Shown: one piece after another, positions 1 to 13,560 of the stretch | Layout: each line of letters begins with the position of its first letter | Numbering within the stretch: position 1 is the stretch's first letter | Origin: an uncultured bacterium | GTDB lineage: Bacteria; Patescibacteriota; Patescibacteriia; UBA1558; GWA2-36-10 | Length of the DNA stretch: 15,554 nucleotides | NCBI GenBank assembly: GCA_937912185.1 | Contig: CALDOH010000078.1 | Span: forward strand, 1-15,554 | Reading direction: 5' to 3' | The notes under the pieces: model-generated | Database searches by the model: none | Told to the model about the DNA's origin: nothing | The model's input: the letters and a program-made list of their open reading frames with translations, nothing else | Position numbers and translations under genes: made by a program

Positions 1-248
1 CCCTTTGTCAAACCATTACTACCAATACCATCTTCAATATTTTGCCAACTATTACTCCTGATAGCCCTGACTGCCTCAACACCCTCTTGGGCGTACTCGG
101 CCAAAGCTTGCTTATCACCAGCTCCATAAAAATTGGTATATGAATTGGTCACTACATAAAAAACACCGGCCGCTAAAATAGCAAAAACCGCCAGAGCCAC
201 TACTAGCTCCACCAGAGAAAAACCCGAGTTGTTATTTTTTATCTTCAT
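1..248 (-). CDS. Type IV prepilin-like protein (C-terminus cut by window edge)
   Basis: This is the first 82 codons of a prepilin or pseudopilin on the minus strand, starting at ATG 248-246 and running off the window at base 1. The product begins MKIKNNNSGFSLVEL and then has a hydrophobic helix (about residues 13-32). This is a class III signal: a short basic leader, Gly9 followed by Phe10, and Glu14, which would be Glu5 of the mature pilin. A prepilin peptidase would cut after Gly9, and the helix would pack into the pilus core. The following stretch, with EYAQEGVEAVRAIR, resembles minor pilins of the PilV/GspI type as seen in CPR genomes (family knowledge, moderate certainty). It follows the pilin-FISUMP gene in the same direction after a 229 bp gap, so it is probably a further minor or major pilin of the same cluster. 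The Shine-Dalgarno is weak. The C-terminal domain is unseen, so major versus minor pilin cannot be decided. Confidence 0.88.
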   Translation of the reverse strand, partial: MKIKNNNSGFSLVELVVALAVFAILAAGVFYVVTNSYTNFYGAGDKQALAEYAQEGVEAVRAIRSNSWQNIEDGIGSNGLTK

Positions 249-281
249 CCCGTTAAAAATTTACCTTGTCAACTGTGATTC

Positions 282-364
282 ACCCAGTTAGAAATTATAG
301 TGAAATACATAATTATTATTTTGCTTTTTCACTTCAGCTAAACATTGTGAATTTCTAACTAGGT
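282..364. repeat. Imperfect inverted repeat in the gap between the two pilin genes
   Basis: Arms 282-296 and 350-364 pair at 14 of 15 positions, with an unbroken 11 bp core (AGTTAGAAATT against AATTTCTAACT). A smaller nested stem, AGTGAAA (299-305) with TTTCACT (327-333), lies inside. In a minus-strand transcript this would fold in the 5' leader of the downstream pilin. There is no T-tract after it, so it is not a standard terminator. A minus-strand TATAAT (plus 294-299) overlaps the left arm but has no recognisable -35. The rest of the 249-477 gap shows no gene. Confidence 0.5.
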
Positions 365-448
365 AAAATTACTTTTCATTCCTGTTTATTTTACTAAAAC
401 GATATTTGTTAATTTTATAAAAACTCTTACTACATTACTCTTTAATAC

Positions 449-473
449 AATCCCATGAATTTCTAGCGGGATT
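449..473 (-). other. Weak hairpin 3' of the pilin-FISUMP gene
   Basis: AATCCC (449-454) pairs with GGGATT (468-473) just after the stop codon of the pilin-FISUMP gene on the minus strand. An alternative pairing, ATGAAT with ATTCAT, uses overlapping bases. Only a poor T-run follows, so termination here is doubtful. The sequence resembles a degraded version of the strong terminator at 8305-8335, sharing ATCCCGCT and TAGA. It could be a partial terminator or an mRNA 3'-end stabiliser that adjusts the ratio of the two pilins. Confidence 0.35.
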
Positions 474-477
474 CATT

Positions 478-1593
478 TTAATCTTTTAGACAACGAACTG
501 AAAATCCCCAGTTTTGAGCACTATCTGTCTGCCCCATAGTAGCTCCATTGTCATTATAATGAACCCAAGAAACTGTTGTTGGCGTGGTCTCATCGGAAGT
601 CCAGAGCGCTATCAAGGAACTAATACTATCATAGGTATCTGAGGTGGCATCCCTTTCACCAGACATAATCATATCAAAACCAGAAGAACCATTTAATTTT
701 AGCTCTGTGCCAACGCTGGGGGCTGGAAAATTTGCTATTAATGTTTCATATTCCGAATCACTCGGAACATGCCAACCACTAGGACAAATACCCTGGCTTT
801 GAGAAAGAGTAGCATACCCCATTAATTCATCCCAATCATACAAAGCTCCATTGCTATCACAGTTACTTGCAGTATCGGCATAACACCACTTCTCTATAAT
901 ACTATTATCAGTCGGATCGGTGGCTGCACTAGCTAACATAGTACCAGTATTGAGATTTTCTGCCATCCAACATTGATCAGCTATTTGAGCTGTTCTGTAA
1001 GCTTGTCCCTCTATGTCATAGACATAATTCTCTCCGCAAGTAAAAGTATAGGCTAGGCCAGTAGGAGTAATATGAATAGTTTTCTCTGCACCAAAATTGC
1101 TACTTAGCTTGATGATCTGCTCGGCTAGATTGCTAGCAGTACTAGTACTAAGCCAACCAGACTTAAAATCAAAATAAAATTCATTTATTTGATCTGAGCC
1201 AACATAGACACCACTATTTAATTGCATAATTCTATCATAGCTAGCATTACGATAATCAAAGAACTTTCCTTTATACAAAACTATACAATCTCCGCTATCC
1301 TCACAATAAGAATTATTGTCTAAAACTTTTATACCCCACACATCACCAAAATAACCAGTAACTGAATAATTTCTAGCTTGAGAAATAAATTCAACCAACT
1401 CTTTTGATTTGGCGTCCAAATCTTCTCGAGATGCCGTAGTGTTTACCATGGTAAGGGCTGAGGTCAAAATAATTACAAAAATAGCTACTACTACCAAAAT
1501 TTCAACCAGACTAAATCCTAATTGGTTTTTCTTTACATCTTTCAAAATTTTTCTGCCCCGAACGTAGTCGAGGGATATTTTCATTCTGGACAT
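478..1593 (-). CDS. Type IV (GspH/FimT-like) minor pilin fused to a FISUMP domain
   Basis: This 371-residue protein has two parts. The N-terminus is a prepilin: basic leader, Gly26-Phe27 cleavage site in QLGFSLVEI, Glu31 as mature Glu5, and a hydrophobic helix to about residue 50. Residues 55-183 look like a GspH/FimT pseudopilin globular domain (ELVEFISQARNYSV, then WGIKV, then ITPTG). Residues about 186-371 match the Fibrobacter succinogenes major paralogous (FISUMP) domain, with VYDIEGQAYRTAQI, CWMAENLN, GALYDW, CPSGWHVPSDSEYETL and GFSVRCLKD. Eight cysteines (97, 103, 186, 208, 237, 245, 270, 368) could form disulfides. The domain probably sits at the pilus tip or surface as an adhesin-like module; this is inference, as FISUMP function is not established. 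ATG 1593-1591 overlaps the pilC stop by one base (TAATG), which supports this start by coupling. ATG at 1584 is an alternative. Leader residues 7-14 are encoded by a short repeat-like sequence. Confidence 0.9.
   Translation of the reverse strand: MSRMKISLDYVRGRKILKDVKKNQLGFSLVEILVVVAIFVIILTSALTMVNTTASREDLDAKSKELVEFISQARNYSVTGYFGDVWGIKVLDNNSYCEDSGDCIVLYKGKFFDYRNASYDRIMQLNSGVYVGSDQINEFYFDFKSGWLSTSTASNLAEQIIKLSSNFGAEKTIHITPTGLAYTFTCGENYVYDIEGQAYRTAQIADQCWMAENLNTGTMLASAATDPTDNSIIEKWCYADTASNCDSNGALYDWDELMGYATLSQSQGICPSGWHVPSDSEYETLIANFPAPSVGTELKLNGSSGFDMIMSGERDATSDTYDSISSLIALWTSDETTPTTVSWVHYNDNGATMGQTDSAQNWGFSVRCLKD
1554..1575 (-). repeat. Short GC-rich repeat-like motif inside the prepilin leader
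   Basis: On the minus strand the core reads CCTCGACTACGTTCGGGG, which is GC-rich and partly palindromic within an AT-rich gene. It encodes SLDYVRGR (residues 7-14) of the pilin-FISUMP leader, giving an unusually long 26-residue leader. From memory, closely similar sequences (CTCGACTACGCTCGGG) occur as dispersed intergenic repeats in Bacteroidetes and some CPR genomes. Only one copy is seen in this window, so repeat status is not shown by the sequence alone. Confidence 0.35.
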
Positions 1594-2813
1594 TAGCGCC
1601 CAACGTTACTAGTTAATGAGTAGATAGGATTGATAATTGAAATTGCCACAAAGCCGACCACCAAACCAATCATAATCAAAAGTGCTGGTTCAAGCATGGT
1701 GGATAAATTCTTGGTAGTATTATCAACCTCCAGTTCATAAAAGTCTGCTAAGTACTCTAAAACTTCGCTCAGATTACCCGAACTTTCACCTACTCTAGCC
1801 ATATTAGCTAACAAACTTGGAAAATATTTTCTGTCACTTAGGGCTTCAGCCAATGAGCCACCCTTTAGTATTCGATGATAAACTGCATTGGTTTCTTTTT
1901 TGTAGCCATCATTAGTCAAGGTTTGGGAAACTATCTGCAAGGCTCGATCAATGGTAATACCACTGTCTAAAAGTGATCCTAAAGTACGAGCAAATAAGGC
2001 CAGATTGAGATGCTTGGAGATATTGCCCATTATAGGCAGCCTCAATATAATCAAATGAAGAATAAGCCTAGTAGACTTAATCTTTGCCATAACTCTAAAA
2101 ATAATAAGAAGCAAGACTATAGCACCAACAAGCCACATCCAATAATTTACCATGAAGTCGGAAATAGCTATAAAAATTTTAGTAGTGGTTGGTAAATCAA
2201 TTTTTAAAGTATTAAAAAATCCTAATATCTTTGGCAGAACAAACACAGATATAACTACCACCAAACCTATAATAGCGACAATGACTAAACTTGGATAAAT
2301 TGCCGCTGCTTTTATTTTTGATCTAAGTTCATAGCTTTTACGCTGTTGAATGGCCAACAGATTAAGATTTTTAGCCAGTGTACCCCCTTGTTCACCGACC
2401 GCAACCATATTGATAAATAGGGCATCAAAATCTTTAGGATATCTTTTCAAGGCCTCTGACAAACGATTACCCTTTCTAACATCCTCAAGTACTATTTCTA
2501 AACGCTTTGACAAAACTGGTGAAGCATTATCTTTGAGAGTTTCAAGAGCTGTATCAATCGACATACCAGCCTTGATCATGACCGATAAATGCTTGGCAAA
2601 CATAACCCGCTCTATCATCTTGACCTTACCAAAAACCATCTGGCCTTTTTTCTTGACCTTCTTGCCGGGCATCTCACCTTTGACTGGCTCTAGCATGACA
2701 ATCGTCCCCTCCTGGGCCGCTAATTTATTTTTGGCCTCTTGAATACTCATCGCCTCAATACCACCAGTAACAACTTTACCTTTATTGTCTGCTAATTTGT
2801 AATTAAACAACAT
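1593..2813 (-). CDS. pilC: Type IV pilus inner-membrane platform protein PilC (GspF family)
   Basis: This 406-residue GspF/PilC protein forms the cytoplasmic-membrane platform that PilB drives to assemble pilins. The sequence shows the duplicated T2SSF domain. Copy 1 (about 70-195) has FAKHLSVMIKAGMSIDTAL and VAVGEQGGTLAKNL. Copy 2 (about 272-398) has FARTLGSLLDSGITIDRAL and VGESSGNLSEVLEYLADFYE. Three membrane segments are visible at about 170-196, 222-245 and 373-398. The length is normal for the family. Translation starts at ATG 2813-2811, with AGGAAA about 10 nt upstream. It lies 47 bp after pilB, separated by a stable hairpin, and its stop overlaps the next start by one base. Its position after pilB and before pilin genes marks it as a pilus rather than a secretion component. 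A type II secretion GspF cannot be excluded from the sequence alone, but no other secretion gene is near. Confidence 0.95.
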   Translation of the reverse strand: MLFNYKLADNKGKVVTGGIEAMSIQEAKNKLAAQEGTIVMLEPVKGEMPGKKVKKKGQMVFGKVKMIERVMFAKHLSVMIKAGMSIDTALETLKDNASPVLSKRLEIVLEDVRKGNRLSEALKRYPKDFDALFINMVAVGEQGGTLAKNLNLLAIQQRKSYELRSKIKAAAIYPSLVIVAIIGLVVVISVFVLPKILGFFNTLKIDLPTTTKIFIAISDFMVNYWMWLVGAIVLLLIIFRVMAKIKSTRLILHLIILRLPIMGNISKHLNLALFARTLGSLLDSGITIDRALQIVSQTLTNDGYKKETNAVYHRILKGGSLAEALSDRKYFPSLLANMARVGESSGNLSEVLEYLADFYELEVDNTTKNLSTMLEPALLIMIGLVVGFVAISIINPIYSLTSNVGR

Positions 2814-2828
2814 ATGTTTTATTTCCTG

Positions 2829-2860
2829 TCCCGTGATACCGCTTGCGGTATTTTACGGGA
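2829..2860 (-). other. Stable hairpin filling the pilB-pilC gap, without T-tract
   Basis: TCCCGT (2829-2834) pairs with ACGGGA (2855-2860), and ATACCGC (2836-2842) with GCGGTAT (2845-2851), separated by a small internal loop. The structure directly abuts the pilB stop codon (2861-2863). On the minus strand it is followed by CAGGAAATAAAAC, which carries the pilC ribosome site, not by a T-tract. An mRNA-stability or partial attenuation role between motor and platform genes is more likely than termination. Confidence 0.5.
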
Positions 2861-4549
2861 TTATTCTTTAGTAACTCTAAATATTTCTTCAATAGTAGTT
2901 TTACCAGAGATAACTTTTTGAAAACCGTCTTCCAGCATAGTTTTCATACCATTGGTTTGAGCTGCTTTTTTGATCTGGTCAGAGTCAGCTCGATTGGTAA
3001 TCAATTCTTTTATATTATCTTTTACCTGCAATACTTCAAAAATACCAACTCGACCAGCATAACCGCTATGATTACAAGCATCACAGCCCTTGCCCTTATA
3101 CAGTCTAATTTCTTTGAGCTCGTCCATATTAAGAAATTTTTCAATGTCTACTTGACGTTTTAAGTCACTTATTTCCTTCTCAGTCAAAGAATAACTAACA
3201 ATGCATTTCATACAAATATGTCTGACCAAACGTTGGGCAATAATCACATTGACTGTAGAAGCTACCAAAAATGGCTCTATTTTCATATCAAGCAAACGAG
3301 GCAGGGAAGTAGCCGCATCGTTGGTATGAAGGGTAGATAATACTAGGTGACCAGTCATGGCAGAGTTGATTGCAATACTAGCTGTTTCTTCGTCTCGGAT
3401 TTCACCAACCATGATGACGTCTGGATCTTGACGAAGTAGCGACCTGAGGCCTTGGGCAAAAGTCAGATTAGTTTTAGGATTTACCTGGATCTGATTTACG
3501 CCCTCAAGATCATACTCGACTGGGTCTTCAATTGTACAAATGTTTATATCACGCTTATTCAAAATTTTTATCAAAGCATACAAACTAGTAGTTTTACCAG
3601 AACCCGTAGGACCAGTTACCAAAATCATACCATAAGGTTTTTGTACTGCGGTGCTAACTTTTTCTAGGTCATCAGAAGCCATGCCCAAATCCTCCAGAGT
3701 AAACTCCTTGCCCTTGGAAGACAACAAACGCATAACTATTTTTTCACCATGAGTGATTGGTACCACTGAGACTCTAATGTCTACTTTTTCCCCTTCTACT
3801 TGAGTAATAATTTTACCATCCTGAGCCGCTCGACTTTCGTCTGTTCTCATCTTGGATAAAATCTTTATCCTAGTAACAATAATATCTAAAATATTTCTAG
3901 GCAAACGAAGCACATCATATAAAATACCGTCGATCCTAAAACGGACAATGATTTCTTTTTCTGCTGGCTCAACATGAATATCAGAAGCGTGATTGGTGTA
4001 AGCATAGCTAAACAAATCATCCACCAAACGAACTACCGAAATGCTCTCAGCCTTGGCACCCTGTGCCTTTATAGCCTGCTTTTGAATACTAGAAGCATAT
4101 TCTTGTTGGATAGTCTTACGATACAAACCAAAATTATTTTCTATGTCATATTCTGTTGCATAATATGGCACTACTACGTCACCAACTTTCTTTTCTACAG
4201 CTTTGATCATGGAATAATCAAAGGGATTGCTCATTGCTACCTTGATGCCCTCTTCATCTCGTTTGAAAATAAGCATTTTTTGTTTACGAGCTACGATCTC
4301 TGGCAAAAGCTGCAAAGCGTCTGCTTGAATTTTTTCCTTGCTTAGATTAACAAATTTAAAATGCAAAGAATTAGCAATTAATTGACCAATCTCTTCCGAT
4401 TTAATCAAGTTTTGTTTGATCAAGAAAGTAATAAAATCTTTTTGGCTATCTTGAGCTGTCTTAAGAGCGGTATCCAAAACACTAGACTCAATCAAGCCTA
4501 TTTTGCTAATTATATTATGTACCTTGGCATCGGAAATAATTTGCGACAT
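2861..4549 (-). CDS. pilB: Type IV pilus extension ATPase PilB (GspE family)
   Basis: PilB is the cytoplasmic hexameric ATPase that powers pilin insertion at PilC. Residues are numbered from an upstream GTG at 4564. An N-terminal MshEN/GspE-N region (about 10-145) with LLPEIVARKQKML leads to the secretion ATPase core. Visible motifs are SDIHVEP (194-200), Walker A GPTGSGKTT (318-326), the Asp box CTIEDPVE (343-350), Walker B with DPDVIMVGEIRDEET (380-394) and the His box TGHLVLSTLHTNDA (404-417). Four cysteines (451, 454, 494, 497), in CMKC and CDAC, form the zinc site typical of PilB/GspE and usually absent from PilT. I prefer ATG 4549-4547 (MSQIISDAK), giving 562 residues; GTG 4564 would add five residues but its start lies inside a hairpin arm. 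It sits 71 bp downstream of cheY, consistent with control of pilus extension by the chemosensory module. No retraction ATPase pilT is present in the window. Confidence 0.95.
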   Translation of the reverse strand: MSQIISDAKVHNIISKIGLIESSVLDTALKTAQDSQKDFITFLIKQNLIKSEEIGQLIANSLHFKFVNLSKEKIQADALQLLPEIVARKQKMLIFKRDEEGIKVAMSNPFDYSMIKAVEKKVGDVVVPYYATEYDIENNFGLYRKTIQQEYASSIQKQAIKAQGAKAESISVVRLVDDLFSYAYTNHASDIHVEPAEKEIIVRFRIDGILYDVLRLPRNILDIIVTRIKILSKMRTDESRAAQDGKIITQVEGEKVDIRVSVVPITHGEKIVMRLLSSKGKEFTLEDLGMASDDLEKVSTAVQKPYGMILVTGPTGSGKTTSLYALIKILNKRDINICTIEDPVEYDLEGVNQIQVNPKTNLTFAQGLRSLLRQDPDVIMVGEIRDEETASIAINSAMTGHLVLSTLHTNDAATSLPRLLDMKIEPFLVASTVNVIIAQRLVRHICMKCIVSYSLTEKEISDLKRQVDIEKFLNMDELKEIRLYKGKGCDACNHSGYAGRVGIFEVLQVKDNIKELITNRADSDQIKKAAQTNGMKTMLEDGFQKVISGKTTIEEIFRVTKE

Positions 4550-4560
4550 ATTTTTATCCC

Positions 4561-4615
4561 GCACCTTTTGGCGCGAATTAATTATAAATTCTTTACCCTA
4601 CCCCACAAAAGGTGC
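4561..4615 (-). promoter_or_regulatory. Long-looped 10 bp hairpin between cheY and pilB
   Basis: GCACCTTTTG (4561-4570) pairs perfectly with CAAAAGGTGC (4606-4615) across a 35-base loop that contains a smaller GAATT/AATTC stem. In the minus-strand transcript the 3' arm ends about 11 nt before the preferred pilB ATG, so folding could affect pilB ribosome access. No T-tract follows, so it is not an ordinary terminator. Its role in translational control or RNA processing is inference. Confidence 0.5.
4581..4608 (-). promoter_or_regulatory. Possible internal promoter ahead of pilB
   Basis: On the minus strand, TTGTGG (plus 4603-4608) and a consensus TATAAT (plus 4581-4586) are 16 bp apart, inside the loop of the cheY-pilB hairpin. 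Transcription would begin near 4574, about 25 nt before the preferred ATG, and the transcript would carry only the 3' arm of the hairpin. The -35 matches only TTG, and TATAAT occurs easily in AT-rich DNA, so this is a candidate. Confidence 0.35.
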
Positions 4616-4620
4616 AGAGT

Positions 4621-5118
4621 TTATTTATCAATTTGTTCTATCGGTTCATTAATTTGTGAATGAGACTGATCATTGGGTGGCCCAATCACTGAAGTGTCAC
4701 TATGATTATTAGCTACCCTTGCTTTTTTACTTTGAGTCTTAGAATTTAAATATTGACTTACTTTATCAACTATTGTTGCCAAGGTAACATCGTCCTTTAC
4801 TAAGTAATCAACTGCCCCCAAATCTAAACCTTTTTTAACATCGTCCTTTTGTCCTAAATTGGATAAAATGAGTACCGGGATATCCTTGGTAGCTGGATTT
4901 TTTTGTAGCTCAGTCAAAACTTCAAAACCACTCTTCTTTGGCATAATCATATCCAAAATAATCAAATCTGGATCACTGATTTGTGCTTTTTCCAAACCCT
5001 CCTCACCATCAGCCGCTAGAATTACCTCATAACCATGCTCACCTAACTCGGCTTGATAAACTTTGCGCAAAAAAGTATCGTCATCAATAAACAAAATTTT
5101 TGCTTTTACTTCTGCCAT
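4621..5118 (-). CDS. CheY-like response regulator with hydrophilic C-terminal tail
   Basis: This is a 165-residue single-domain receiver. The fold spans residues 5-126 and carries the usual phosphorylation-site residues: acidic pocket in FIDDD (10-14), phospho-acceptor Asp56 in LIILDMIMP, switch Ser86 in PVLILSN, and Lys108 in YLVKDD. No DNA-binding output domain follows. Residues about 128-165 form a polar, probably disordered tail rich in Ser, Asn, Gln and Pro, longer than in CheY. It starts at ATG 5118-5116, one base after the cheA stop, and is followed by pilB. It is therefore the likely target of the CheA kinase and probably acts on the pilus motor or its partners. This is inferred by analogy with PilG/PilH of the Pil-Chp system; the actual effector contact is unknown. 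Confidence 0.92.
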   Translation of the reverse strand: MAEVKAKILFIDDDTFLRKVYQAELGEHGYEVILAADGEEGLEKAQISDPDLIILDMIMPKKSGFEVLTELQKNPATKDIPVLILSNLGQKDDVKKGLDLGAVDYLVKDDVTLATIVDKVSQYLNSKTQSKKARVANNHSDTSVIGPPNDQSHSQINEPIEQIDK

Positions 5119-5119
5119 A

Positions 5120-6679
5120 TTATTTTACTAAGTTATTTATATCTAAAATCAAAACCGGCAAACCTTCATCAGAAACAGCTACGCCCTTTAAGTAATCCAG
5201 ATTCTTCAACACCTGAGGTGTATTTTTGGCAATTAATTCCCGTTCGTTTATGTTACTAAAAATAGGTAAGGCTAATTTCTCACCTTTGTACTTTATAATA
5301 GCTATATATTTTGACAGGGCTGCTATTTTTGGTAAATTCATTTCTTTTGGCAAAGCCGTCATCTTGTATCTAGCTTTATCGTGCACAAAAATTTTTGTTT
5401 TATTAAAATCTCTCACTTCGGGCAATTTTATTATCCTGTCAATAAAAGAAAGTGGAATTGCCAAGGTGTAATCTGCAATCTTAAAAGTTAGACCCCTAAA
5501 TACTGACAACGGCAAAGGTAGCTTAATGCTAAAGGTTGCTCCTTTACCAGACTTACTCTCGACTAACATATCTCCGTCTAGGCTTTCAACCTTAGCCTTG
5601 ACCAAGCTAAGCCCTACTCCTCGACCAGAACTAATACTAACGCTTTTACCTCTAGAAATACCAGCTTTAAATATTAAATTTTTTATTTCTGAGACTGTTA
5701 ATTTTTTGGCAGCCACTCGGCTAATAATTTTGTTTTTAACTGCCATATCCATGATTTCTTGCCAATCAATACCTTGGCCATTGTCTTTGACTACTATCTT
5801 CATTTGATCATTGTCTAGTGAAACCACTACCTCAATTCGACCATTCTTTTGCTCTCGAGTGATGCCATGAGCTACGGCATTTTTCAACAGCTGGATTAAT
5901 ATTTCTATGAGTTCATCTAAAATAGCCTTATCTAAAGACAAGTCATTATCCTCTATCACCAAATCAACATTCTTTCCTTCATCTTTGGCAATCTCCCTAA
6001 CTAGATAAGGCAAAGAAGAAAAAATCTGAGCCAAGGGCACAATTCTAATTTTTTCTAATTCACGTCGCAGGTCATTGACAATCCTGTCAGCATTTACTGA
6101 TAGTGACAACAACTTGGCTTTACCCAAGCTTTTGACAATAGACTTTGTCTCCATAACATTGACCAAAAGATCGTCAGACATATCATAAAGTCGATTAAGA
6201 TTTTCTACTGGTACAGAAATTTCTGCAACTGTTGGTATACTACCCAAAAGATGTTTCTCTTGCCGATAAACATTCTTGGTTTTTATTTTTTTGCCTTGTT
6301 TCCTTTGTTTGAGGCCCCCTACAAGCAAATTTATCTGTTTAGTTAAATTTATTTCTCGATTATTTTTTTTGATAGATTTAAGATTGTTATCAAAAACTTC
6401 TATGGTATCGATAAATAATTCTAAAATATTTTTATCAATCATTAATCTTTGCTGGAAAGCAGCGTCAATTATACTTTCCATAGCATGAAACAGATTAACT
6501 GTTTTTTTATAAGCCATAGTAGCAGCCGCACCCTTCATGGAGTGAATCAAACGAAAAATATTTTCAATCAAATTCTGATTGTCCGGACTTCTTTCTAAAG
6601 ACAAAAACAGGTTAGTCAGCTTATTTAACTGATCTTTGCTAGTAGAAATATATAAATCTTTGTATTTGGCACTAACCAT
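5120..6679 (-). CDS. cheA: Chemotaxis-type histidine kinase CheA (no P2 domain)
   Basis: CheA autophosphorylates and passes phosphate to CheY in a receptor array. This 519-residue protein shows an N-terminal HPt (P1) domain, about 1-105, with His46 in LIHSMKGAAATM. A basic linker (about 125-145) leads to the P3 dimerisation region (about 150-215), ending in IRIVPLAQIF. The P4 ATPase follows, with N box LLKNAVAHGI (264-273), G1 box DNGQGI (299-304) and G2 box SGRGVGLSLVK (351-361). The C-terminal P5 domain (about 390-519) is CheW-like. It is shorter than most CheA (about 650 residues) because no P2 CheY-docking domain lies between P1 and P3. ATG 6679-6677 overlaps the cheW stop by 8 nt (ATGGTTAG), indicating coupling. 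All key catalytic residues seem present, so it should be active. The receptor and cheW upstream and cheY downstream make the module self-contained. Confidence 0.93.
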   Translation of the reverse strand: MVSAKYKDLYISTSKDQLNKLTNLFLSLERSPDNQNLIENIFRLIHSMKGAAATMAYKKTVNLFHAMESIIDAAFQQRLMIDKNILELFIDTIEVFDNNLKSIKKNNREINLTKQINLLVGGLKQRKQGKKIKTKNVYRQEKHLLGSIPTVAEISVPVENLNRLYDMSDDLLVNVMETKSIVKSLGKAKLLSLSVNADRIVNDLRRELEKIRIVPLAQIFSSLPYLVREIAKDEGKNVDLVIEDNDLSLDKAILDELIEILIQLLKNAVAHGITREQKNGRIEVVVSLDNDQMKIVVKDNGQGIDWQEIMDMAVKNKIISRVAAKKLTVSEIKNLIFKAGISRGKSVSISSGRGVGLSLVKAKVESLDGDMLVESKSGKGATFSIKLPLPLSVFRGLTFKIADYTLAIPLSFIDRIIKLPEVRDFNKTKIFVHDKARYKMTALPKEMNLPKIAALSKYIAIIKYKGEKLALPIFSNINERELIAKNTPQVLKNLDYLKGVAVSDEGLPVLILDINNLVK

Positions 6680-7088
6680 AAATTTTGACTTGCTCCCACA
6701 AATTTTCTAAATCTAAAATATAAACCTTGCGTTTATTGACCTTTATATACTTATTAAATTTCTTTTTACTACGATCAGTAAAAACTTGTTTTACTCTGAT
6801 AGTATTGTCACCGTCATCAACCTCTAGGCCATAATAATCCCCCTGATAGTCAAAGAGTAGGCAATTCTTACTACGAATACGCTTTACTCTTAAATCCAAA
6901 ATTTTGGCTGTGTCCAATAAAGTAATTATTTTTCCACCATGGTAAACCAAGCCCAAAACATTTTCTGGAGCACCAGGAATCAAAGTAATAGCCTCACAAG
7001 CAATAAACTGACTAGTTGGCAAAAGTGGCAACGCCCAAAGCTCATCAGCTAAATGAAATAATGTAAATTTGTATATCTTAACTGGCAT
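6672..7088 (-). CDS. cheW: CheW-like adaptor protein
   Basis: This 138-residue single CheW domain links receptors to CheA in the cytoplasmic signalling array. Conserved features are a first-strand region IYKFTLFHLADELWALPL, and the central block LIPGAPENVLGLVYHGGKIITLLD, seen here as PGAPENVLGL then GKIITLLD, where family members have a similar GxxxxxxGLxxxxGxxxPLxD pattern. The remaining strands (LLFDYQGDYYGLEVDD) fit the second half of the fold. I chose ATG 7088-7086 (MPVKIYKF), which overlaps the receptor stop by 11 nt. A TTG at 7106 would add six residues and a longer overlap, with little support. The stop is TAG, embedded in the cheA start. It lies between receptor and kinase genes, so the three products are likely made together. 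Its sequence is fairly divergent, but the neighbours make the assignment firm. Confidence 0.88.
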   Translation of the reverse strand: MPVKIYKFTLFHLADELWALPLLPTSQFIACEAITLIPGAPENVLGLVYHGGKIITLLDTAKILDLRVKRIRSKNCLLFDYQGDYYGLEVDDGDNTIRVKQVFTDRSKKKFNKYIKVNKRKVYILDLENLWEQVKIYG

Positions 7089-8238
7089 AATCACTTTTAT
7101 CACCAACTAAATTATTTAGATTGTCTGTTACTTTGTTTAAAACGGCAGAAGATTTATTTAAAGAATTTATGACCACTAGTTGTTTATGAATTATTTTAGT
7201 GATATCATCGGCATTATCCACCAAAGACTTGGCAGATTTATTGAAGCCCAAAATCATAGAATTTATCTTATCAGCATCTTGATGAGTATCTTCGGTCTCC
7301 TGACTAATAACCTGTGTGCTTTTAGCAATACTACCAACATTACCAACAATTTTATTCAAAAAATTAATAGTCTGCCCCACTATTTGGATACTTTTATTAG
7401 TTTCCTGCCATTCATAGACACTTGATTGTTTGGCTTGTTTAATTTGGCGACTCATATCAGCCACCAAGGCCTGGATACTACTAGCTGCTTGTTGACTAGT
7501 TATGTTAAGCTCTCTAATCTGAGATACTAGACTAGAAAATTGTTCACCAAAAGCTGTTTTATTGGCCTCAATAGAAACATTGAGACTCAAGAACTTTGCT
7601 GTATCGGCTAAGACCTCTACTCGCTTGGTAATATCAGCTACTTTATCAGCATAAGCATCCAAAGCTTGGCTCAATTTCTGATTCTCTGTTACCAAATGTT
7701 TTACTGCTACTAAACTATCTAAAGCCGCTTGAGACTTATCACCACTTTCACTAGCTAACTTGTCTATATTAGCCGTACTCTGAGCAGAACTCTTGGTCTT
7801 GATGGCAATTTGATTGAGAGACTTAACAATTTGAGCCACTGCTTTTTGGCCAGTCTTTAGACCTTTTTGTTGATCTTGGCTATTGAGCAATAAATCCTGA
7901 GAAATATCACTATCATTTTGACTAATATCAGACAAATTTTGTACTGACTTTGACAAGTCATCAACTACTTTCAATAGTTCATTGAGAGCTAGCTGGATTG
8001 GTCTGGTGACTACCCGAGAAAGAAAACGAGTGGCAATCAAAGATAGAAAAAACACAAAAGCCAAAGATATAAAAATCCCAAGCATGATACTCCTCATGGT
8101 TTCTGGATTGTTTAGGAGTTGAGTAGAGTTCGGGTCACTTGAATAAACAACAATAAATAAAATTAACAACGGTAAAATAGATACCAAAACAAACCAGGAA
8201 ATAAACTTCAGGTAAATTTTTGTTTCTGCTATTTTCAC
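7078..8238 (-). CDS. MCP-like chemoreceptor without a ligand-binding domain
   Basis: This 386-residue membrane protein is a methyl-accepting-chemotaxis-type receptor. Membrane helices are at about 10-32 and 51-70, with only about 18 residues (SSDPNSTQLLNNPETMRS) between them, so no periplasmic or extracellular sensor domain exists. A HAMP-like start (SRVVTRPI, 74-81) leads into a long coiled coil to the C-terminus. The hairpin tip, about 207-248, keeps LSLNVSIEAN (217-226) and FSSLVSQIREL, matching family LALNAAIEAA and FAVVAxEVRxL. The usual RAGExGRG stretch is replaced by KTAFGEQ, one residue shorter. Typical Glu-rich methylation segments and a C-terminal CheR-binding pentapeptide are not evident. 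The start is GTG 8238-8236, with AGGAAA well placed upstream. It is the first gene of the chemosensory-pilus unit. By analogy with PilJ it may sense the pilus itself or membrane state, but the signal is unknown. Confidence 0.85.
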   Translation of the reverse strand: MKIAETKIYLKFISWFVLVSILPLLILFIVVYSSDPNSTQLLNNPETMRSIMLGIFISLAFVFFLSLIATRFLSRVVTRPIQLALNELLKVVDDLSKSVQNLSDISQNDSDISQDLLLNSQDQQKGLKTGQKAVAQIVKSLNQIAIKTKSSAQSTANIDKLASESGDKSQAALDSLVAVKHLVTENQKLSQALDAYADKVADITKRVEVLADTAKFLSLNVSIEANKTAFGEQFSSLVSQIRELNITSQQAASSIQALVADMSRQIKQAKQSSVYEWQETNKSIQIVGQTINFLNKIVGNVGSIAKSTQVISQETEDTHQDADKINSMILGFNKSAKSLVDNADDITKIIHKQLVVINSLNKSSAVLNKVTDNLNNLVGDKSDYAS

Positions 8239-8274
8239 TTATTTCCTATCTATTTTTATTTTTTATGTTAATAA

Positions 8275-8303
8275 ATTATAACATATTTTGGCACTAAAAA
8301 CAA
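8275..8303 (-). promoter_or_regulatory. Extended -10 promoter of the chemosensory-pilus operon
   Basis: On the minus strand, a perfect TATAAT (plus 8275-8280) is preceded by TGT, making an extended -10. TTGTTT (plus 8298-8303) lies 17 bp upstream as -35. Transcription would start near 8268, giving a leader of about 30 nt with a good AGGAAA ribosome site before the receptor GTG. The -35 overlaps the T-tract of the upstream terminator. Confidence 0.7.
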
Positions 8304-8335
8304 AATCCCGTTTCTAGTAAATCTAGAAGCGGGAT
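8295..8335 (-). terminator. Rho-independent terminator after the O-antigen ligase-like gene
   Basis: Arms 8305-8317 and 8323-8335 pair over 13 bp with one wobble and a 5-base loop. On the minus strand the stem is followed by TTTTGTTTTTA (plus 8294-8304). It lies 20 bp after the stop of the ligase-like gene and so separates the glycan unit from the pilus operon. The plus strand carries no comparable T-tract, so it works in the minus direction. Confidence 0.88.
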
Positions 8336-8355
8336 CTGATATAAAATTCTAAAAC

Positions 8356-10500
8356 TTATGGCAAGTATTCTTTGACCAAATCTATTATTTCCTGATCTTG
8401 ATTACCCTCAGCCTGAGTCAAAACTAAACGTAGACGATCAATCTCTGAGCCTTCAAAATCTACACCAAATGTTTTTTGATTAATAGCCTTAATTTTCTCT
8501 AGACTATCTCTCAAATCTTCTATATTAGAATCGTAGAGACTGATACCGAAACTAGTCCAGTAACCTAACTTGGCCCAAGGAGCTGTTTCTTTCAAGTCAT
8601 TTGCTACATCTCTGGCCGAAGCCAAGTCTCCTATTCTTAAATAGGCTGTGCTCAACTGATTTAGAAGGTCGGGACGATTAGGGGCGATGTTTCTCAGGCT
8701 AGTCAGTAAACTAATATCCTCTATAGCATAGTTAGGATTTACGCCGGTTGCTCTTTCATAAAAATAAGATAAAAACAAACCGAGTCGAACATCCTCTGGA
8801 TTTTCATAATATAGTTCTTCTAAAAATTCTTCTGTTTGATTAAAATATTTTGTCTTAATATCATCTGGCACACTAGAACTGGTCAAAACATTGCTAGCCA
8901 TTCTAGAAATAACCTCTGCCTTCTCAGTATTACCTAAGGCAGACATATTCACTGACTCACGCCAAGTATTGAGAGCCACATTAAAATCACTTCGGCCCCT
9001 GGCCTCGCTAATCATCTTACTAGATTCCAGTAGCAAGGTATTACTTCGGTATGGTCGCCAAATCATAGTAAAAATAAGCACACCTACCAAAATAACTATC
9101 AGTGGTATATAGATGTAGTATTTCTGCTTACTTCCAAGAAAGTGTGGCAAACGCCATTTTTTCTTAGTGCCTAAACTAAATAAATAAGCTATTATCAAAT
9201 AAAAAGTTATGTTAATATTTAAACTATCAAATATAAACAAATCTTGGAATAAAAATCCCAAAAGAAAAGCTATCCAGAAAAAGCTAAAAAACCATTCTTT
9301 CTGTTTTTTTGCTTTTTTATAAAGGTAAAATATAAGGTAAGCAAAAATAGCTAGATATAGACCTAAACCTAGAATCCCTCCTTGGATCAAATGCTGGAGC
9401 AAAACGTTATGTGGTCGATCAAACCAAATCTCAGAACCAACATGTTGATATATTTCTGGTGGAAAGTACTGATTGAAGACGTGTCTAAAGTTTTCTTCTC
9501 CCCAACCCAAAATTGGCTTTTCTTTGACCGACTGAATAGTACTGCCCCAAATGTGCCAACGAGAATGTATGGTAGTGTCCTGCCAGGACATACTAGTAAA
9601 CTTGTTGAGAAAATATGAATCCTTTACCCAGGTATTATCCTTTTGCTGGTACACTAAAGCAACAAAAGCCAATGCTAAAACCAAAAGTCCAACAACCAAA
9701 TAATACCACTTATCTCTTTTCTTACGATTAAACCAAAGATAAAATATGGTCAATAAAAATCCGAAAACAGCTAGGCCCAAGAAAGCCCCTCTAGTTTGAC
9801 TAATTACCAGGGCAGTCACAAAAAACACAACACTGGCTCCGTACCAAAGATAGACCCATGACCAAGATCTTTTTTTGAGATATTGGATAAACAAAAGATA
9901 TAAGGCAACAACTGAATTCAAAAACATATACGCACCTACATAGGCTGCATTGCCTAAAGTAGAAGTAGCTCTAATACCACCATGTGACTCTGCTATAAAT
10001 GATAGATCCAACCTTTGACCAATGGCCATCAGTGAAGCTACCCAGGCTGGTATCAAAGCAAAATTAAATAGTAGGTGCCAATCTTTTTTCTCTCTCATCA
10101 AACCCAGAAGGACAAAGATATAAATGAAAATATAATACCACCCCACTAGACCGTCCATTCTTTCAAAATTGCTCCAAAAACTAAAAGTAAAATTACCACC
10201 AAGTATACTAGAAATCGTCAAAGAAAGAATAAACAAGAATATAATAACTAGGCCCTTATTAAAACGAAATTTGTATTTTGAATTGCTGAGCCAGAGCCAC
10301 AAATAGATTCCCAGAAGGACATTGACAATCAAACGAAACATTAAGTTTCTAGGCACAATATATGGAAAATAAAATGTATCAACAGTTACCAAAGGAGCAA
10401 ACAAAATCACTAGTAGCAATATTTTCCCTACCAACACCAAATAGTCATCAGCTGTTTTTAGGCTCTGAAAATAAGCTTTTATTTTTCGTAAAATTTTCAT
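8356..10500 (-). CDS. O-antigen ligase / Wzy-type polytopic membrane protein with C-terminal helical (TPR-like) domain
   Basis: This 714-residue protein has about a dozen hydrophobic helices across residues 20-480 and then a soluble region of about 230 residues. It fits the Wzy_C superfamily (O-antigen ligases WaaL, polymerases Wzy, pilin oligosaccharyltransferases PglL). Visible hallmarks are SQTRGAFLGL (234-243), the big extracytoplasmic loop with SRWHIWGSTIQSVKEKPILGWG (313-334) containing Arg314, and RPHNVLLQHLIQGGILGL (362-379) with His364, followed by helices. These enzymes move polyprenyl-linked glycans onto lipid, protein or another glycan outside the membrane. Residues about 485-714 contain TPR-like helix pairs (PDLLNQLSTAYLRIGDLASA), also seen in PglL-like and Gram-positive or CPR homologues. 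The start ATG 10500-10498 follows the methyltransferase stop by 7 bp. The substrate cannot be read from sequence; adjacency to pilin genes makes pilin glycosylation one possibility. Confidence 0.85.
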   Translation of the reverse strand: MKILRKIKAYFQSLKTADDYLVLVGKILLLVILFAPLVTVDTFYFPYIVPRNLMFRLIVNVLLGIYLWLWLSNSKYKFRFNKGLVIIFLFILSLTISSILGGNFTFSFWSNFERMDGLVGWYYIFIYIFVLLGLMREKKDWHLLFNFALIPAWVASLMAIGQRLDLSFIAESHGGIRATSTLGNAAYVGAYMFLNSVVALYLLFIQYLKKRSWSWVYLWYGASVVFFVTALVISQTRGAFLGLAVFGFLLTIFYLWFNRKKRDKWYYLVVGLLVLALAFVALVYQQKDNTWVKDSYFLNKFTSMSWQDTTIHSRWHIWGSTIQSVKEKPILGWGEENFRHVFNQYFPPEIYQHVGSEIWFDRPHNVLLQHLIQGGILGLGLYLAIFAYLIFYLYKKAKKQKEWFFSFFWIAFLLGFLFQDLFIFDSLNINITFYLIIAYLFSLGTKKKWRLPHFLGSKQKYYIYIPLIVILVGVLIFTMIWRPYRSNTLLLESSKMISEARGRSDFNVALNTWRESVNMSALGNTEKAEVISRMASNVLTSSSVPDDIKTKYFNQTEEFLEELYYENPEDVRLGLFLSYFYERATGVNPNYAIEDISLLTSLRNIAPNRPDLLNQLSTAYLRIGDLASARDVANDLKETAPWAKLGYWTSFGISLYDSNIEDLRDSLEKIKAINQKTFGVDFEGSEIDRLRLVLTQAEGNQDQEIIDLVKEYLP

Positions 10501-10507
10501 ATTTCTA

Positions 10508-11377
10508 TTATTTATTAGGCTTTACTAAGACGAAGATATTATCTCTTACATTTATAGGAATGGCAAGCTTTCTCCATATTGGTTTATCAAAAAATACCGA
10601 TAAAACCTTGAAAAAACCTATTCCCTTAGAATTATGGAAAATATGGAAAATATAAGGTAAAGAAAATTTCTTACCTATTTTCTTTTTGGCAATTACCTCA
10701 AAACCAGCTTGGGTAAACAAATCTTCTAGATTTTTGTAGGTATAATACATTAAGTGTTCCGGTGGCACGATGAGTTGCCAGCGCTTACCCAAAATTTTGG
10801 CCCACAGACTACCACGGTCAATTGTATTGACTGCCAGGACACTATCTTCACTCATCATTGATCTAAGTTTTTTTAGATAGGTCAATGGATCTGGCAAGTG
10901 CTCAAGTACATCCCACATAGTCACTAGATCAAACTTATCGTCAGTCTCGACTGATTCCAGATCTTTGCCAGCCCAAGCTTGATGACCTTTGTCGTGAGCT
11001 AGTTTGCTAGCATACTCCGATATATCTATACCATAAGTTTGCCAGCCCTTGGTTTTGGCTAGATCCAAAAAATAACCAGTAGCTGAACCAATATCAAAAA
11101 TTCTTCTGCCCGGAACTAACTTAGCAAAAGAATCTAGGTGTTTGAGAAAAATCTCTCGCATCATTTCTTTGTCTTGATCATAGTCAGTATAACCAAACTT
11201 ATGATCTTGATCATCTTTATGAAAATAATTCTTAGAATAAACATCGTCTAATATATTTGGTACCGGCCAAACAAAAACTAGATCACATTGCTGACAACGA
11301 TGTAAATCATAACCATTTTTTTGACAAAAGAGTCTATGTTTTTCTCCCCGGCAAATAGGACAAACTATTTTTTCCAT
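10508..11377 (-). CDS. SAM-dependent class I methyltransferase with N-terminal zinc ribbon
   Basis: This 289-residue enzyme begins with a four-cysteine zinc-ribbon-like motif, CPIC (6-9) and CQQC (28-31). A Methyltransf_23-type SAM fold follows: motif I FDIGSATGYFLDLA (94-107), the acidic end of strand 2 in YGIDIS (115-120), and WDVLEHLPDP (155-164), typical of ubiquinone/sugar-type methyltransferases. The later PPEHLMYYT segment (205-213) is common in homologues in polysaccharide loci. This architecture resembles sugar or glycan methyltransferases, so modification of the glycan is likely, but the acceptor atom is unknown. ATG 11377-11375 overlaps the end of the upstream glycosyltransferase by 13 nt in another frame, and the ligase-like gene follows after 7 bp, so the three form one unit. 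The protein is probably cytoplasmic. Confidence 0.87.
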   Translation of the reverse strand: MEKIVCPICRGEKHRLFCQKNGYDLHRCQQCDLVFVWPVPNILDDVYSKNYFHKDDQDHKFGYTDYDQDKEMMREIFLKHLDSFAKLVPGRRIFDIGSATGYFLDLAKTKGWQTYGIDISEYASKLAHDKGHQAWAGKDLESVETDDKFDLVTMWDVLEHLPDPLTYLKKLRSMMSEDSVLAVNTIDRGSLWAKILGKRWQLIVPPEHLMYYTYKNLEDLFTQAGFEVIAKKKIGKKFSLPYIFHIFHNSKGIGFFKVLSVFFDKPIWRKLAIPINVRDNIFVLVKPNK

Positions 11378-12081
11378 AATCGTTTCAAAAACAGCCGCCA
11401 GGGAGCTCTAATTCCTTCGGAAATTATCTGATTGGAAATTTTTGACTCACCTTCACGACGACTAGCAAAAATTATCGGGACTTCTTTGACTCGTGCTCTA
11501 TATTTGTGTATGAGATAAAATTTTAACTCAATCAAAAAAGAATAACCAGCTGAACCGAAGTCAGAAAAATCCAGCTTTTGTAAGTAAGGCCGACTAATAC
11601 ACATAAAGCCAGCCGTAAAATCATTAATTGGCAGCCCAGTCAAAATCTTGGCATAAGTATTTCCAAAGCTACTTAATTTTTTGCGCCAAAACTCCCAATC
11701 AGCTACTCCGCCACCTTTGACGTAGCGAGAACCAATTATCAAATCATAATTATCATTATTGGCTAAAAAATCTTTTAAATATTTTGGTTGATGAGAGCCA
11801 TCTGCATCCATGGTGATGACTGAACGTACTTCAGGATCAACCATCACCTGCTTCATGGCAGTGATGTAGGCATTGCCCAGGCCATCTTTAATTTTTCTCT
11901 CTAAAATAAATAAGTTTGGATACTTAGCCATTAATTCCTTGACTACTTCGGCAGTTTTATCTGGTGAGCTATCATCGATTACCAAAATGTTTATATCTGG
12001 TAAAATGTCAAAAATTTCTGGAATAATTACCTTAACATTATCTCTTTCATTGTAAGTCGGGAGTAAAATTACGTCTTTCAT
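11365..12081 (-). CDS. GT2 glycosyltransferase, DPM1-like (polyprenol-phosphate sugar synthase type)
   Basis: This 238-residue soluble GT-A enzyme has PTYNERDNV (8-16), the nucleotide-binding VIDDSSPDKT (34-43), the metal-binding DADGSHQP (92-99) and IIGSRYVKGG (115-124). A conserved tail region contains NDFTAGFMCISRPYL. This pattern fits the dolichyl/polyprenyl-phosphate mannosyltransferase (DPM1) subgroup, which moves mannose or another sugar from a nucleotide donor to a lipid phosphate at the membrane. No C-terminal membrane helices are present, as in soluble DPM1. The lipid-linked sugar would then serve a GT-C enzyme or the glycan pathway encoded around it. It is the first gene of the minus-strand glycan unit; ATG 12081-12079 has no clear ribosome site and the gene ends in TAG inside the methyltransferase start. 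The donor sugar is not determined. Confidence 0.9.
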   Translation of the reverse strand: MKDVILLPTYNERDNVKVIIPEIFDILPDINILVIDDSSPDKTAEVVKELMAKYPNLFILERKIKDGLGNAYITAMKQVMVDPEVRSVITMDADGSHQPKYLKDFLANNDNYDLIIGSRYVKGGGVADWEFWRKKLSSFGNTYAKILTGLPINDFTAGFMCISRPYLQKLDFSDFGSAGYSFLIELKFYLIHKYRARVKEVPIIFASRREGESKISNQIISEGIRAPWRLFLKRLWKK

Positions 12082-12139
12082 ATCTTGGCTAAAAATAAAA
12101 AAAATCTTAAATATTTTTGTCTAAAACTAGTTAAAATAT

Positions 12140-12169
12140 TTGACAAAAGTAGGTTGTTCTTATTATAAT
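12140..12169 (+). promoter_or_regulatory. Consensus sigma-70-type promoter for the plus-strand glycan operon
   Basis: TTGACA (12140-12145) and TATAAT (12164-12169) both match consensus exactly, with 18 bp between them. Initiation would be near 12176, leaving a leader of about 19 nt that lacks a recognisable Shine-Dalgarno before the ATG at 12195. On the other strand TTGTCA covers 12139-12144, overlapping this -35, and may contribute to the poorly defined divergent promoter of the GT2 gene. The rest of the 12082-12194 gap is AT-rich without other structure. Confidence 0.78.
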
Positions 12170-12194
12170 ATAAAAAGTAATTTAATTCAACTGA

Positions 12195-13559
12195 ATGAGG
12201 AAACTAGTCTTATTTATTGGTGATGTTATTCTACTTTACGCCTCATTAGCCGCCACTCTGTGGCTAAGATACGGCTATCTAGACAGTGAACTATGGCAAG
12301 AACATCTAGGTCCATTTTCACTGGTTTTTGCTATTTGGATAATTGTTTTCTTCATCAATCGCCTCTATGAAATAAGGCGAATCAAAAAAGACTTTAAATT
12401 TTATGGTCAATTGATCCAAAACCTACTTATCAACGCCCTCTTGGCGGTGCTAATTTTCTATACTATTACTGGACACTTTTCTGATATTAAACCGCAAACC
12501 ATTTTAGTAGTCTTATTGTTAATCTTCGCCGTGCTATTCTTGCTCTGGCGTAAAATATTTTATCAGATTGTTTCTGGTAAAGCTCTACAAAATAATTTGG
12601 CTATTGTTGGCATTAGTCCGGAATCTTTACTATTGGCTGAAGAAATTATTACCAAACCAGAACTAAGTTATAAATTGAACTTAATCGTTAATCCTGATCA
12701 TTCCGACATACCGGAAAAATTTCAAGTAGTAACTATCATAAAAGATATAACTGATTTAAAAAATCAACTAATCAAAAATAAAATCAATACTGTCGTAGCA
12801 GTAAATAATTCTAGTTATAGCCCAGAAGTAGCTCGCTATCTTTTTGAAAGTATTGATCTAAAAATACAATATTTTAATCTGACTGACTTTTATGAAAAAA
12901 TAACTGGCAAGATTCCCATTACCGCCTTGGAACGCAATTGGTTTTTAGAAAATATCAGCCAAAAAAATAATCAGCTCTTTATTGTGGTCAAAAGAGCTAT
13001 TGATATTTTGTTTGCCGCATTCTTTGGTCTAATCTCTCTAGTACTCTTACCTTTTATTGTTTTACTTATAAAACTAGAGTCTAAAGGGCCATTAATTTAC
13101 AAACAAAAAAGAGTTGGCCTTAGCAACAAAGTATTTACTGTCTATAAATTCCGCTCCATGGTACAAAATGCTGAAAAAAATGGAGCTCAGTGGGCCCAAA
13201 AAAATGACGCTCGAGTCACCAAAATTGGTAAATTCATGAGAAAAACTAGACTAGACGAAATCCCTCAATTTTGGAATATCATTATTGGCAATATGAGTTT
13301 TGTCGGTCCGCGACCAGAACGTCCTGAATTTGTCGAGCAGCTAAAACAAGAAGTGCCTTATTATAATGAAAGACATTTAATCAAACCTGGTCTCAGTGGT
13401 TGGGCGCAGATCAATTATCCTTATGGCGCTAGTGTTGAAGATGCCAAACAAAAACTTCAATACGATTTATTTTATATCAAAAATCAATCAACTGCTTTGG
13501 ACATCTCTATAATCCTCAAAACAATCAATACATTATTTAATATAAGTTTAGGAAGATAA
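12195..13559 (+). CDS. Polyprenyl glycosylphosphotransferase (initiating sugar transferase)
   Basis: This 454-residue membrane enzyme starts glycan synthesis by moving a sugar-1-phosphate from a nucleotide sugar to polyprenyl (undecaprenyl) phosphate. The N-terminal half has four hydrophobic segments (about 4-24, 40-54, 75-93, 100-118) and a CoA-binding/Rossmann-like region (about 130-230), as in WbaP/WcaJ-type large enzymes. The catalytic bacterial sugar transferase domain covers about 262-454. It has the membrane-entry helix (268-293), GPLIYKQKRVGL (298-309), YKFRSM (317-322), the catalytic pair Asp354-Glu355 in TRLDEIPQFWNI, SFVGPRPERPEF (368-379) and KPGLSGWAQI (397-406). All key residues are present and the length is typical. 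ATG 12195 follows a consensus promoter, although no Shine-Dalgarno is seen. The next gene begins one base after its stop. The donor sugar is unknown. Confidence 0.94.
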   Translation: MRKLVLFIGDVILLYASLAATLWLRYGYLDSELWQEHLGPFSLVFAIWIIVFFINRLYEIRRIKKDFKFYGQLIQNLLINALLAVLIFYTITGHFSDIKPQTILVVLLLIFAVLFLLWRKIFYQIVSGKALQNNLAIVGISPESLLLAEEIITKPELSYKLNLIVNPDHSDIPEKFQVVTIIKDITDLKNQLIKNKINTVVAVNNSSYSPEVARYLFESIDLKIQYFNLTDFYEKITGKIPITALERNWFLENISQKNNQLFIVVKRAIDILFAAFFGLISLVLLPFIVLLIKLESKGPLIYKQKRVGLSNKVFTVYKFRSMVQNAEKNGAQWAQKNDARVTKIGKFMRKTRLDEIPQFWNIIIGNMSFVGPRPERPEFVEQLKQEVPYYNERHLIKPGLSGWAQINYPYGASVEDAKQKLQYDLFYIKNQSTALDISIILKTINTLFNISLGR

Positions 13560-13560
13560 A

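Follow-up and report, generated by a model that had tools for sequence, protein, structure and literature searches.

The Pil-Chp system of Pseudomonas aeruginosa (PilJ-PilI/ChpC-ChpA-PilG/PilH-PilK-ChpB) encodes a methyl-accepting chemotaxis protein (MCP), CheW, CheA and CheY together, with genetic linkage to type IV pilus genes, and its regulator PilG is described, in an excerpt of PMC12632253, as controlling the localisation of the extension ATPase PilB. Cyanobacterial Hmp / Tax3 systems, from a different bacterial lineage, likewise exert chemotaxis-like control on type IV pilus assembly and polarity, but involve the partner HmpF, two response regulators and, in some cases, photoreceptor inputs (excerpts of PMC12288463). 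For the candidate phyla radiation (CPR, Patescibacteria), passages of a 2020 survey describe an absence of chemotaxis functions and suggest nonmotility (PMC7137472), passages of a 2025 paper report no full motility and chemotaxis machinery (PMC11974145), and a type IV pilus is presumed to serve host attachment in another CPR bacterium (excerpt of PMC8080830). Here, we describe a chemosensory module embedded in a type IV pilus operon on an entire CPR contig of 15,554 bp (contig C78, hereafter the window), recovered from a reduced genome of 866,139 bases in 163 contigs, rated 89.3% complete. We consider it reasonably probable, from gene content and order, that this module forms a minimal, adaptation-free chemosensory array dedicated to one adhesive type IV pilus, in which CheY would control PilB. 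The open-access literature, to which our search was mostly confined, yielded no report of this module.

Organisation and conservation of the chemosensory-pilus operon

The operon runs on the minus strand from position 8238 down to the contig end, in the order MCP-CheW-CheA-CheY-PilB-PilC-pilin-pilin (lengths in amino acids, aa; values follow the protein families matched):

7078..8238, minus strand: MCP, 386 aa, GTG start; PF00015 1.4e-11
6672..7106, minus strand: CheW, 144 aa; PF01584 2.7e-13
5120..6679, minus strand: CheA, 519 aa; Pfam Hpt, HATPase_c and CheW
4621..5118, minus strand: CheY-type single-domain response regulator, 165 aa with a tail of ~45 residues; PF00072 9.6e-24
2861..4564, minus strand: PilB-type extension ATPase, 567 aa, MshEN + T2SSE; T2SSE 3.6e-134
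1593..2813, minus strand: PilC-type platform protein, 406 aa; T2SSF 1.6e-63
478..1593, minus strand: pilin-like protein with prepilin signal and C-terminal Fib_succ_major (FISUMP) domain, 371 aa; N_methyl 7.4e-07, PF09603 2.6e-21
3..248, minus strand: N-terminal 82 aa of a second pilin-like protein, cut by the contig end; N_methyl 7.3e-10

The original prediction had placed receptor, cheW, cheA, cheY, pilB, pilC and pilins in one run: all seven named genes are present, together with the start of the second pilin, and its suspicion of a reduced CPR genome agrees with the 866 kb Patescibacteria host. Measured from the starts of the longest open reading frames (ORFs), the junctions from MCP to the first pilin are -29, -8, +1, +56, +47 and -1 bp, the largest gap thus lying below the 71 bp it had given for overlaps or gaps in this part. 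The likely start of CheW is an ATG at 7088, and most relatives align from this internal Met. The junction between the two pilins, also from longest-ORF starts, is +229 bp (window 249-477), whereas it ranges from -44 to +10 bp among 12 relatives, all those covering that gap.

Conservation of the MCP-cheW-cheA-cheY-pilB-pilC order in relatives, which had been proposed as a check, was borne out in 16/16 module genomes (the window host, L032-L045 and L218 of genome G454), as far as their contigs reach. Eleven loci cover the operon from MCP through the first pilin (the L044 receptor being cut by a contig end); in the remaining five, the contig starts or stops within the module. A contig scan with the CheA family gave the 14 relatives L032-L045, carrying a CheA that is complete or cut by a contig end (42-80% identity) and bearing the label Parcubacteria, Komeilibacteria, Patescibacteria group or simply bacterium, plus the degenerate locus L046; all were found by two peptide patterns, with the best 80 of 111 confirmed matches kept. 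Genomes were matched across scans through an identical stretch of 300 bases at the CheA locus, and G230, identical to G294, was counted once. Since the order recurs in every relative with a covering contig at such CheA identities, it is not a product of chance. A contig-edge artefact or misassembly was also rejected, the 16 genomes including the single-contig G454 and G230 (100% complete, 10 contigs).

When 380 genomes of the class were sampled, the CheA family was found in 16 of the 19 genomes of one family (f1), 15 of them with an intact or contig-cut gene (626-800 bits) and one with a degenerate gene (212 bits), the best score outside f1 being 342 bits. A phylum-wide sample of 286 genomes gave CheA matches at E < 1e-30 in 14, with only the host and G230 above 500 bits. 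Protein searches, each scored from about 8000 candidates, returned 64 CheA relatives at E 2.9e-92 or better, followed by a Paenibacillus-type CheA at 1.3e-62 (best 120 of 678), and 91 MCP relatives at E 1.4e-87 or better, followed by a match at 1.6e-9 (best 120 of 725). The same operon order is found in a sister family (G634), with a larger receptor of 618 aa. In G643, CheA was unmatched, yet its contig stops at CheY, and this was not taken as evidence of loss.

The window CheA contains an HPt domain (P1, phospho-His46), a divergent dimerisation domain (P3), the ATPase domain (P4) and a CheW-like domain (P5), i.e. all the core domains of the CheA family listed in an excerpt of PMC10782961, which also states that about half of CheA proteins have no P2. 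A CheA devoid of dimerisation domain, as the missing PF02895 match might indicate, was rejected: the family profile covers Thermotoga maritima CheA chain 1b3q (E 3.2e-67) over positions 153-516 (P3-P4-P5) and also covers P1 of other solved chains, so that only P2 is missing. Phospho-His46 and the ATP-binding boxes are invariant or nearly so in 35 CheA sequences, the receiver residues of CheY are conserved in the 16 aligned sequences, and both proteins look catalytically active as judged by these residues. An unrooted CheA tree of 49 rows, composed of module, other CPR and Paenibacillus/Clostridium-like or unnamed CheA with no class-labelled references, places module CheAs in one group (support 100/99) with G634 attached on a long branch, and splits these from other CPR and outgroup CheA. 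On this split, a plain origin of the module CheA within the other CPR systems was set aside, though only provisionally, the tree being unrooted and the G634 branch long.

The type IV pilus assembly features of the window (PilB, PilC and class III prepilin signals) are all present. Walker A is intact in PilB, whose top-scoring NCBIfam models are those for gspE/pilB, none of them reaching its cut-off. The downstream part of the operon in relatives holds an N_methyl+DUF2341 (L032) or N_methyl (L037) protein, an N_methyl+Laminin_G_3 protein (L032, L037), a 293 aa protein without Pfam match and, in L037, PilM. Lectin-like (Laminin_G_3) and FISUMP minor pilins would fit an adhesive pilus. ORFs of PilT length (~350 aa) matching T2SSE, a model not specific to PilT, exist in relatives and in the host, where one is complete and others are truncated at contig ends, so that retraction and movement are likely possible.

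Receptor anatomy and adaptation genes

The MCP has two predicted transmembrane helices (residues 13-31 and 51-69) with 19 residues between them, and a long coiled-coil signalling part. PF00015, above its cut-off, is its only Pfam family, with no match to a HAMP or ligand-binding domain. It is the sole MCP found in the host. Among the 16 lineage genomes searched (the host and G286-G300, all distinct), 15 carry exactly one MCP (11 above and four below the PF00015 cut-off) and the degenerate G300 carries none. A short loop is a family trait, with 17-21 residues between the helices in 65 of the 66 full-length receptors (starting with Met, at least 360 aa) and nine in the other. When the receptor is divided into ten-residue blocks, conservation is lowest in this loop and highest at residues 1-10 (consensus MKLVETKIYL).

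The methylation motif [ASTG][ASTG]xx[EQ][EQ]xx[ASTG][ASTG], as given in an excerpt of PMC12632253, is absent from 85 of the 91 family MCPs and present in one copy in six, while shuffles predict 4.4 in total, a chance value computed without the first 90 residues. This set of 91 takes in five receptors of less than 360 aa, of which P0211 carries a foreign domain. By contrast, 14/14 receptors from other CPR clusters carry 2-8 copies each, against 0.2-0.3 expected. The G634 receptor has a large extracytoplasmic region but no methylation motif, a hint that the loss of methylation preceded that of the ligand-binding domain.

Adaptation enzymes were sought in the same lineage genomes. CheB was found in 0/16, as was CheX, whose model also detects CheC-type proteins of other CPR (a separate CheC model was not searched genome-wide). 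CheR had no genuine match in the 16 genomes: only G299 reached the cut-off, over ~60 residues within an ORF that reads as a generic S-adenosylmethionine (SAM) methyltransferase, the other 15 gave no match, and the weak matches (twice in G299, once in G110) were rejected as ORFs of this generic kind, judged by reading the sequences alone. CheD and GGDEF were found in 0/19 genomes, comprising these 16 plus G454, G634 and G526, which were covered for these two families and left out of the CheR, CheB and CheX searches. FHIPEP/FlhA, the sole flagellar gene searched, was found in 0/28 genomes. Several control genomes gave matches in each of these searches, and assembly gaps are an unlikely cause of the absence of adaptation genes because 10 of the 16 lineage genomes are rated 96-100% complete. 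The loss of CheR/CheB and that of methylation sites moreover coincide, a pattern that an incomplete genome cannot mimic.

In the host itself (866 kb, 89% complete), no CheR, CheB, CheX or CheD was found, CheZ not being searched genome-wide. Adaptation genes hidden elsewhere in the genome, as an explanation, were therefore rejected, the CheR, CheB, CheX and CheD searches having found none that is genuine. The original prediction had pointed to missing CheR, CheB, CheC, CheD and CheZ: this extends to the host and its relatives for CheR, CheB, CheX and CheD, whereas CheZ, and CheC as a model of its own, stand outside the genome-wide searches. It had also looked to a full adaptation set or flagellar genes elsewhere as grounds against it; CheR, CheB, CheX, CheD and FlhA were not found. 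The reduction goes beyond what it had proposed: methylation sites and the ligand-binding domain are also lost, and further-reduced versions exist.

The module would work like Pil-Chp, yet it fails the tested features of methyl enzymes, methylation sites and ligand-binding domain. Unlike Pil-Chp with its PilK and ChpB, no methylesterase and no genuine methyltransferase were found across the 16 genomes; the receptors have methylation motifs at chance level and no ligand-binding domain; the CheA has a single HPt and no receiver domain; and the che genes stand in one run with pilB-pilC-pilins. Counting within the operon only, there is one CheW and one CheY, against the two regulators PilG and PilH. 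To our knowledge, cyanobacterial Hmp / Tax3 systems lack CheR/CheB, and adaptation-free pilus chemosensory systems may also exist there.

Other CPR chemosensory clusters (e.g. G110, G099, G059, G418, G322) also belong to Patescibacteria and, in most cases, encode MCP, CheW, CheA and CheY. Unlike the module, genomes with this different CheA hold CheB (10/12), CheX-model matches (9/12) and CheD (14/14, in a set partly different from that of CheB and CheX). Their receptors carry the methylation motifs described above, with Cache domains in both receptors scanned, and their CheA occupies another region of the tree and in most cases has no pilus genes next to it (exceptions G259 and G106). CheB, CheX/CheC-type and CheD proteins with motif-bearing receptors were observed at L134-L136, L139, L141, L145, L147, L212, L214 and L215. 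No genuine CheR was found in the 12 genomes searched, 10 of them with CheB (G418, G611 and G322, i.e. L212, L214 and L215, were outside this search), and these clusters appear to hold a methylesterase without recognisable methyltransferase. At L140 (G259), the different-type CheA lies near PilB-PilC-pilin genes, CheY is oriented divergently to PilB, and the genome gave no MCP match; at L146 (G106), a CheA of this type, split into two ORFs, also lies near PilB-PilC-pilin genes.

CheY-PilB linkage and competing explanations

CheY lies directly upstream of PilB in 19/19 loci covering this junction (15 module loci, L046, G643 (L209), G634 and G526), while the upstream parts vary. In G634, from another family of the order, a large-domain receptor, CheW and CheA precede CheY-PilB; in G526, from a third family, a HAMP-PAS-HisKA-HATPase kinase replaces the array. 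At L046, MCP and CheW are absent and the CheA has no P3 region or P5 but keeps its HPt and ATPase motifs, and CheY-PilB stays. The altered proteins are:

L046:6407-7297 (genome G511): mini-CheA, 296 aa, HPt + ATPase only, beside a zinc-ribbon CheY and PilB-PilC
L045:11569-12240, L046:7302-7955 and L207:5638-6243: CheY orthologues whose long tail bears a C-terminal zinc ribbon

The window CheY does not have this zinc-ribbon tail. Ten database clusters (P0241-P0250, its own included) hold a mini-CheA of 295-334 aa, at least 81% identical, with common architecture and catalytic motifs, which makes an assembly accident unlikely, although a precomputed HPt label is missing for five of them. Two further entries (P0251, P0252) are apparent CheY/mini-CheA fusions and may stem from chimeric assembly or from rearrangement of the locus. 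No CheY adjoins five PilBs of lower identity in the order (43-47%; L213, L216, L217, L220, L221).

That CheY-PilB behaves as a stable unit while its upstream parts vary points to PilB as the CheY target, and this linkage makes PilB control the best reading of the steering of pilus extension put forward in the original prediction. The sequence basis of the proposed array is one receptor that has neither a ligand-binding domain nor methylation sites that can be recognised, a single CheW, a CheA of four domains with conserved catalytic residues, and one CheY, in a tight run with PilB, PilC and adhesin-like minor pilins. Receptors, CheW and CheA would assemble into an array, in which a stimulus on the membrane hairpin (contact tension or clustering, or touching of membrane-stored pilins or of the pilus platform) may shift CheA activity. 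CheA would then phosphorylate CheY, and CheY-P would act on the neighbouring PilB, so that pilus extension would be started, stopped or placed; the signal would perhaps decay through CheY autodephosphorylation. Without CheR/CheB there should be no methylation memory, hence a response that does not adapt, an on/off switch better suited to contact detection than to gradient following. Receptor anatomy favours a membrane or pilus-borne signal, and we infer a surface or contact stimulus solely from the missing ligand-binding domain. A bolder joint reading, in which the receptor senses its own pilus or membrane as a non-adapting contact switch, the conserved hairpin serving as input, and the system is able to shed its array, is put forward tentatively, and we would sooner bet against it than for it.

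Several points weigh against control of PilB by a contact-sensing array. The 19 junctions share ancestry and were mostly selected via CheA, and so do not count as independent cases; operon neighbourhood alone is not proof that CheY binds PilB, and several other PilB-type proteins are encoded in these genomes. Two of the 19 family genomes, G575 (94% complete) and G615 (84%), lack both CheA and the module PilB (best match 43% identity), which may mean that the operon can be dispensed with. The short-loop receptor could also use an unseen partner protein binding a chemical. One alternative is an ordinary Pil-Chp (Tfp-class) system with some genes lost, still performing true pilus chemotaxis to soluble chemicals via partner binding proteins, which would share the logic of receptor, kinase, regulator and pilus ATPase, and whose ancestor may have sensed ligands, as the G634 operon with its same order and large extracytoplasmic receptor region suggests. 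We nevertheless hold this alternative improbable in view of the missing CheB and genuine CheR, the motifs at chance level, the lack of a ligand-binding domain, the single receptor, and a CheA whose one HPt and absent receiver domain differ from ChpA as described in an excerpt of PMC10782961.

Less easily dismissed, though still rather unlikely, is an array controlling pili that serve to take up DNA or to attach, and not to move or to contact a host. Adhesion is suggested by the minor pilins with FISUMP (window), DUF2341 (L032) and Laminin_G_3 (L032, L037), and an excerpt of PMC8080830 presumes a role of CPR pili in attachment and in the uptake of DNA; on the other hand, the PilT-length ATPase genes of the host and relatives make retraction and movement likely possible, and no competence-specific family occurs among the Pfam-matched operon genes. 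A CheY with a global or other target, its pilus linkage being mere co-expression in an alternative cellular function (ACF)-like system, could draw on the zinc-ribbon tails of the L045, L046 and G634 orthologues, which could bind something else, but seems quite improbable to us since the CheY-PilB adjacency survives the loss or replacement of upstream parts. A cyclic di-GMP route is unlikely because GGDEF is absent from the 19 genomes searched, and control through the PilB MshEN domain was rejected on this ground. The RLG-type motif, which we take to be the one relevant to such control, is absent from module PilBs and equally from paralogues and is thus non-discriminating. CheY-adjacent PilBs also show a GQL(I/V)A stretch in their N-terminal domain, but its signal is inseparable from shared ancestry, and it was left out of the argument.

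Flanking genes and implications

Beside the module, the rest of the window (8356-15554) holds surface-polysaccharide-type genes by reading (O-antigen-ligase-like, glycosyltransferase, sugar-phosphate transferase, epimerase and flippase). The sugar-transferase-like gene, divergent from the module, recurs in 11 loci out of the 15 in L032-L046; in the remaining four, the contig starts within the module. Between the two regions lies:

8239..8355, minus strand: intergenic region with an imperfect hairpin at 8305-8335 and T-rich tail, and TATAAT at 8280-8275, read by eye

The hairpin is possibly the terminator of the upstream gene, and the region likely marks the operon boundary, as far as such faint signals indicate. 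A consensus promoter/terminator scan lists neither the hairpin nor TATAAT, and its promoter-like sites (40 vs 42.5 expected) are at chance density.

Host targeting by the pilus is possible. If the joint reading were true, the mini-CheA clade would represent a CheA working outside a chemosensory array while still driving CheY-PilB, below the four-domain minimum that, according to an excerpt of PMC10782961, was found in a survey of thousands of CheA proteins. The series of states observed here (receptor with domain, receptor without, no receptor, other kinase) would make it testable which parts are needed for pilus control and which of them stay useful without adaptation. One CPR family keeps a chemosensory signalling core family-wide, inside a type IV pilus operon.

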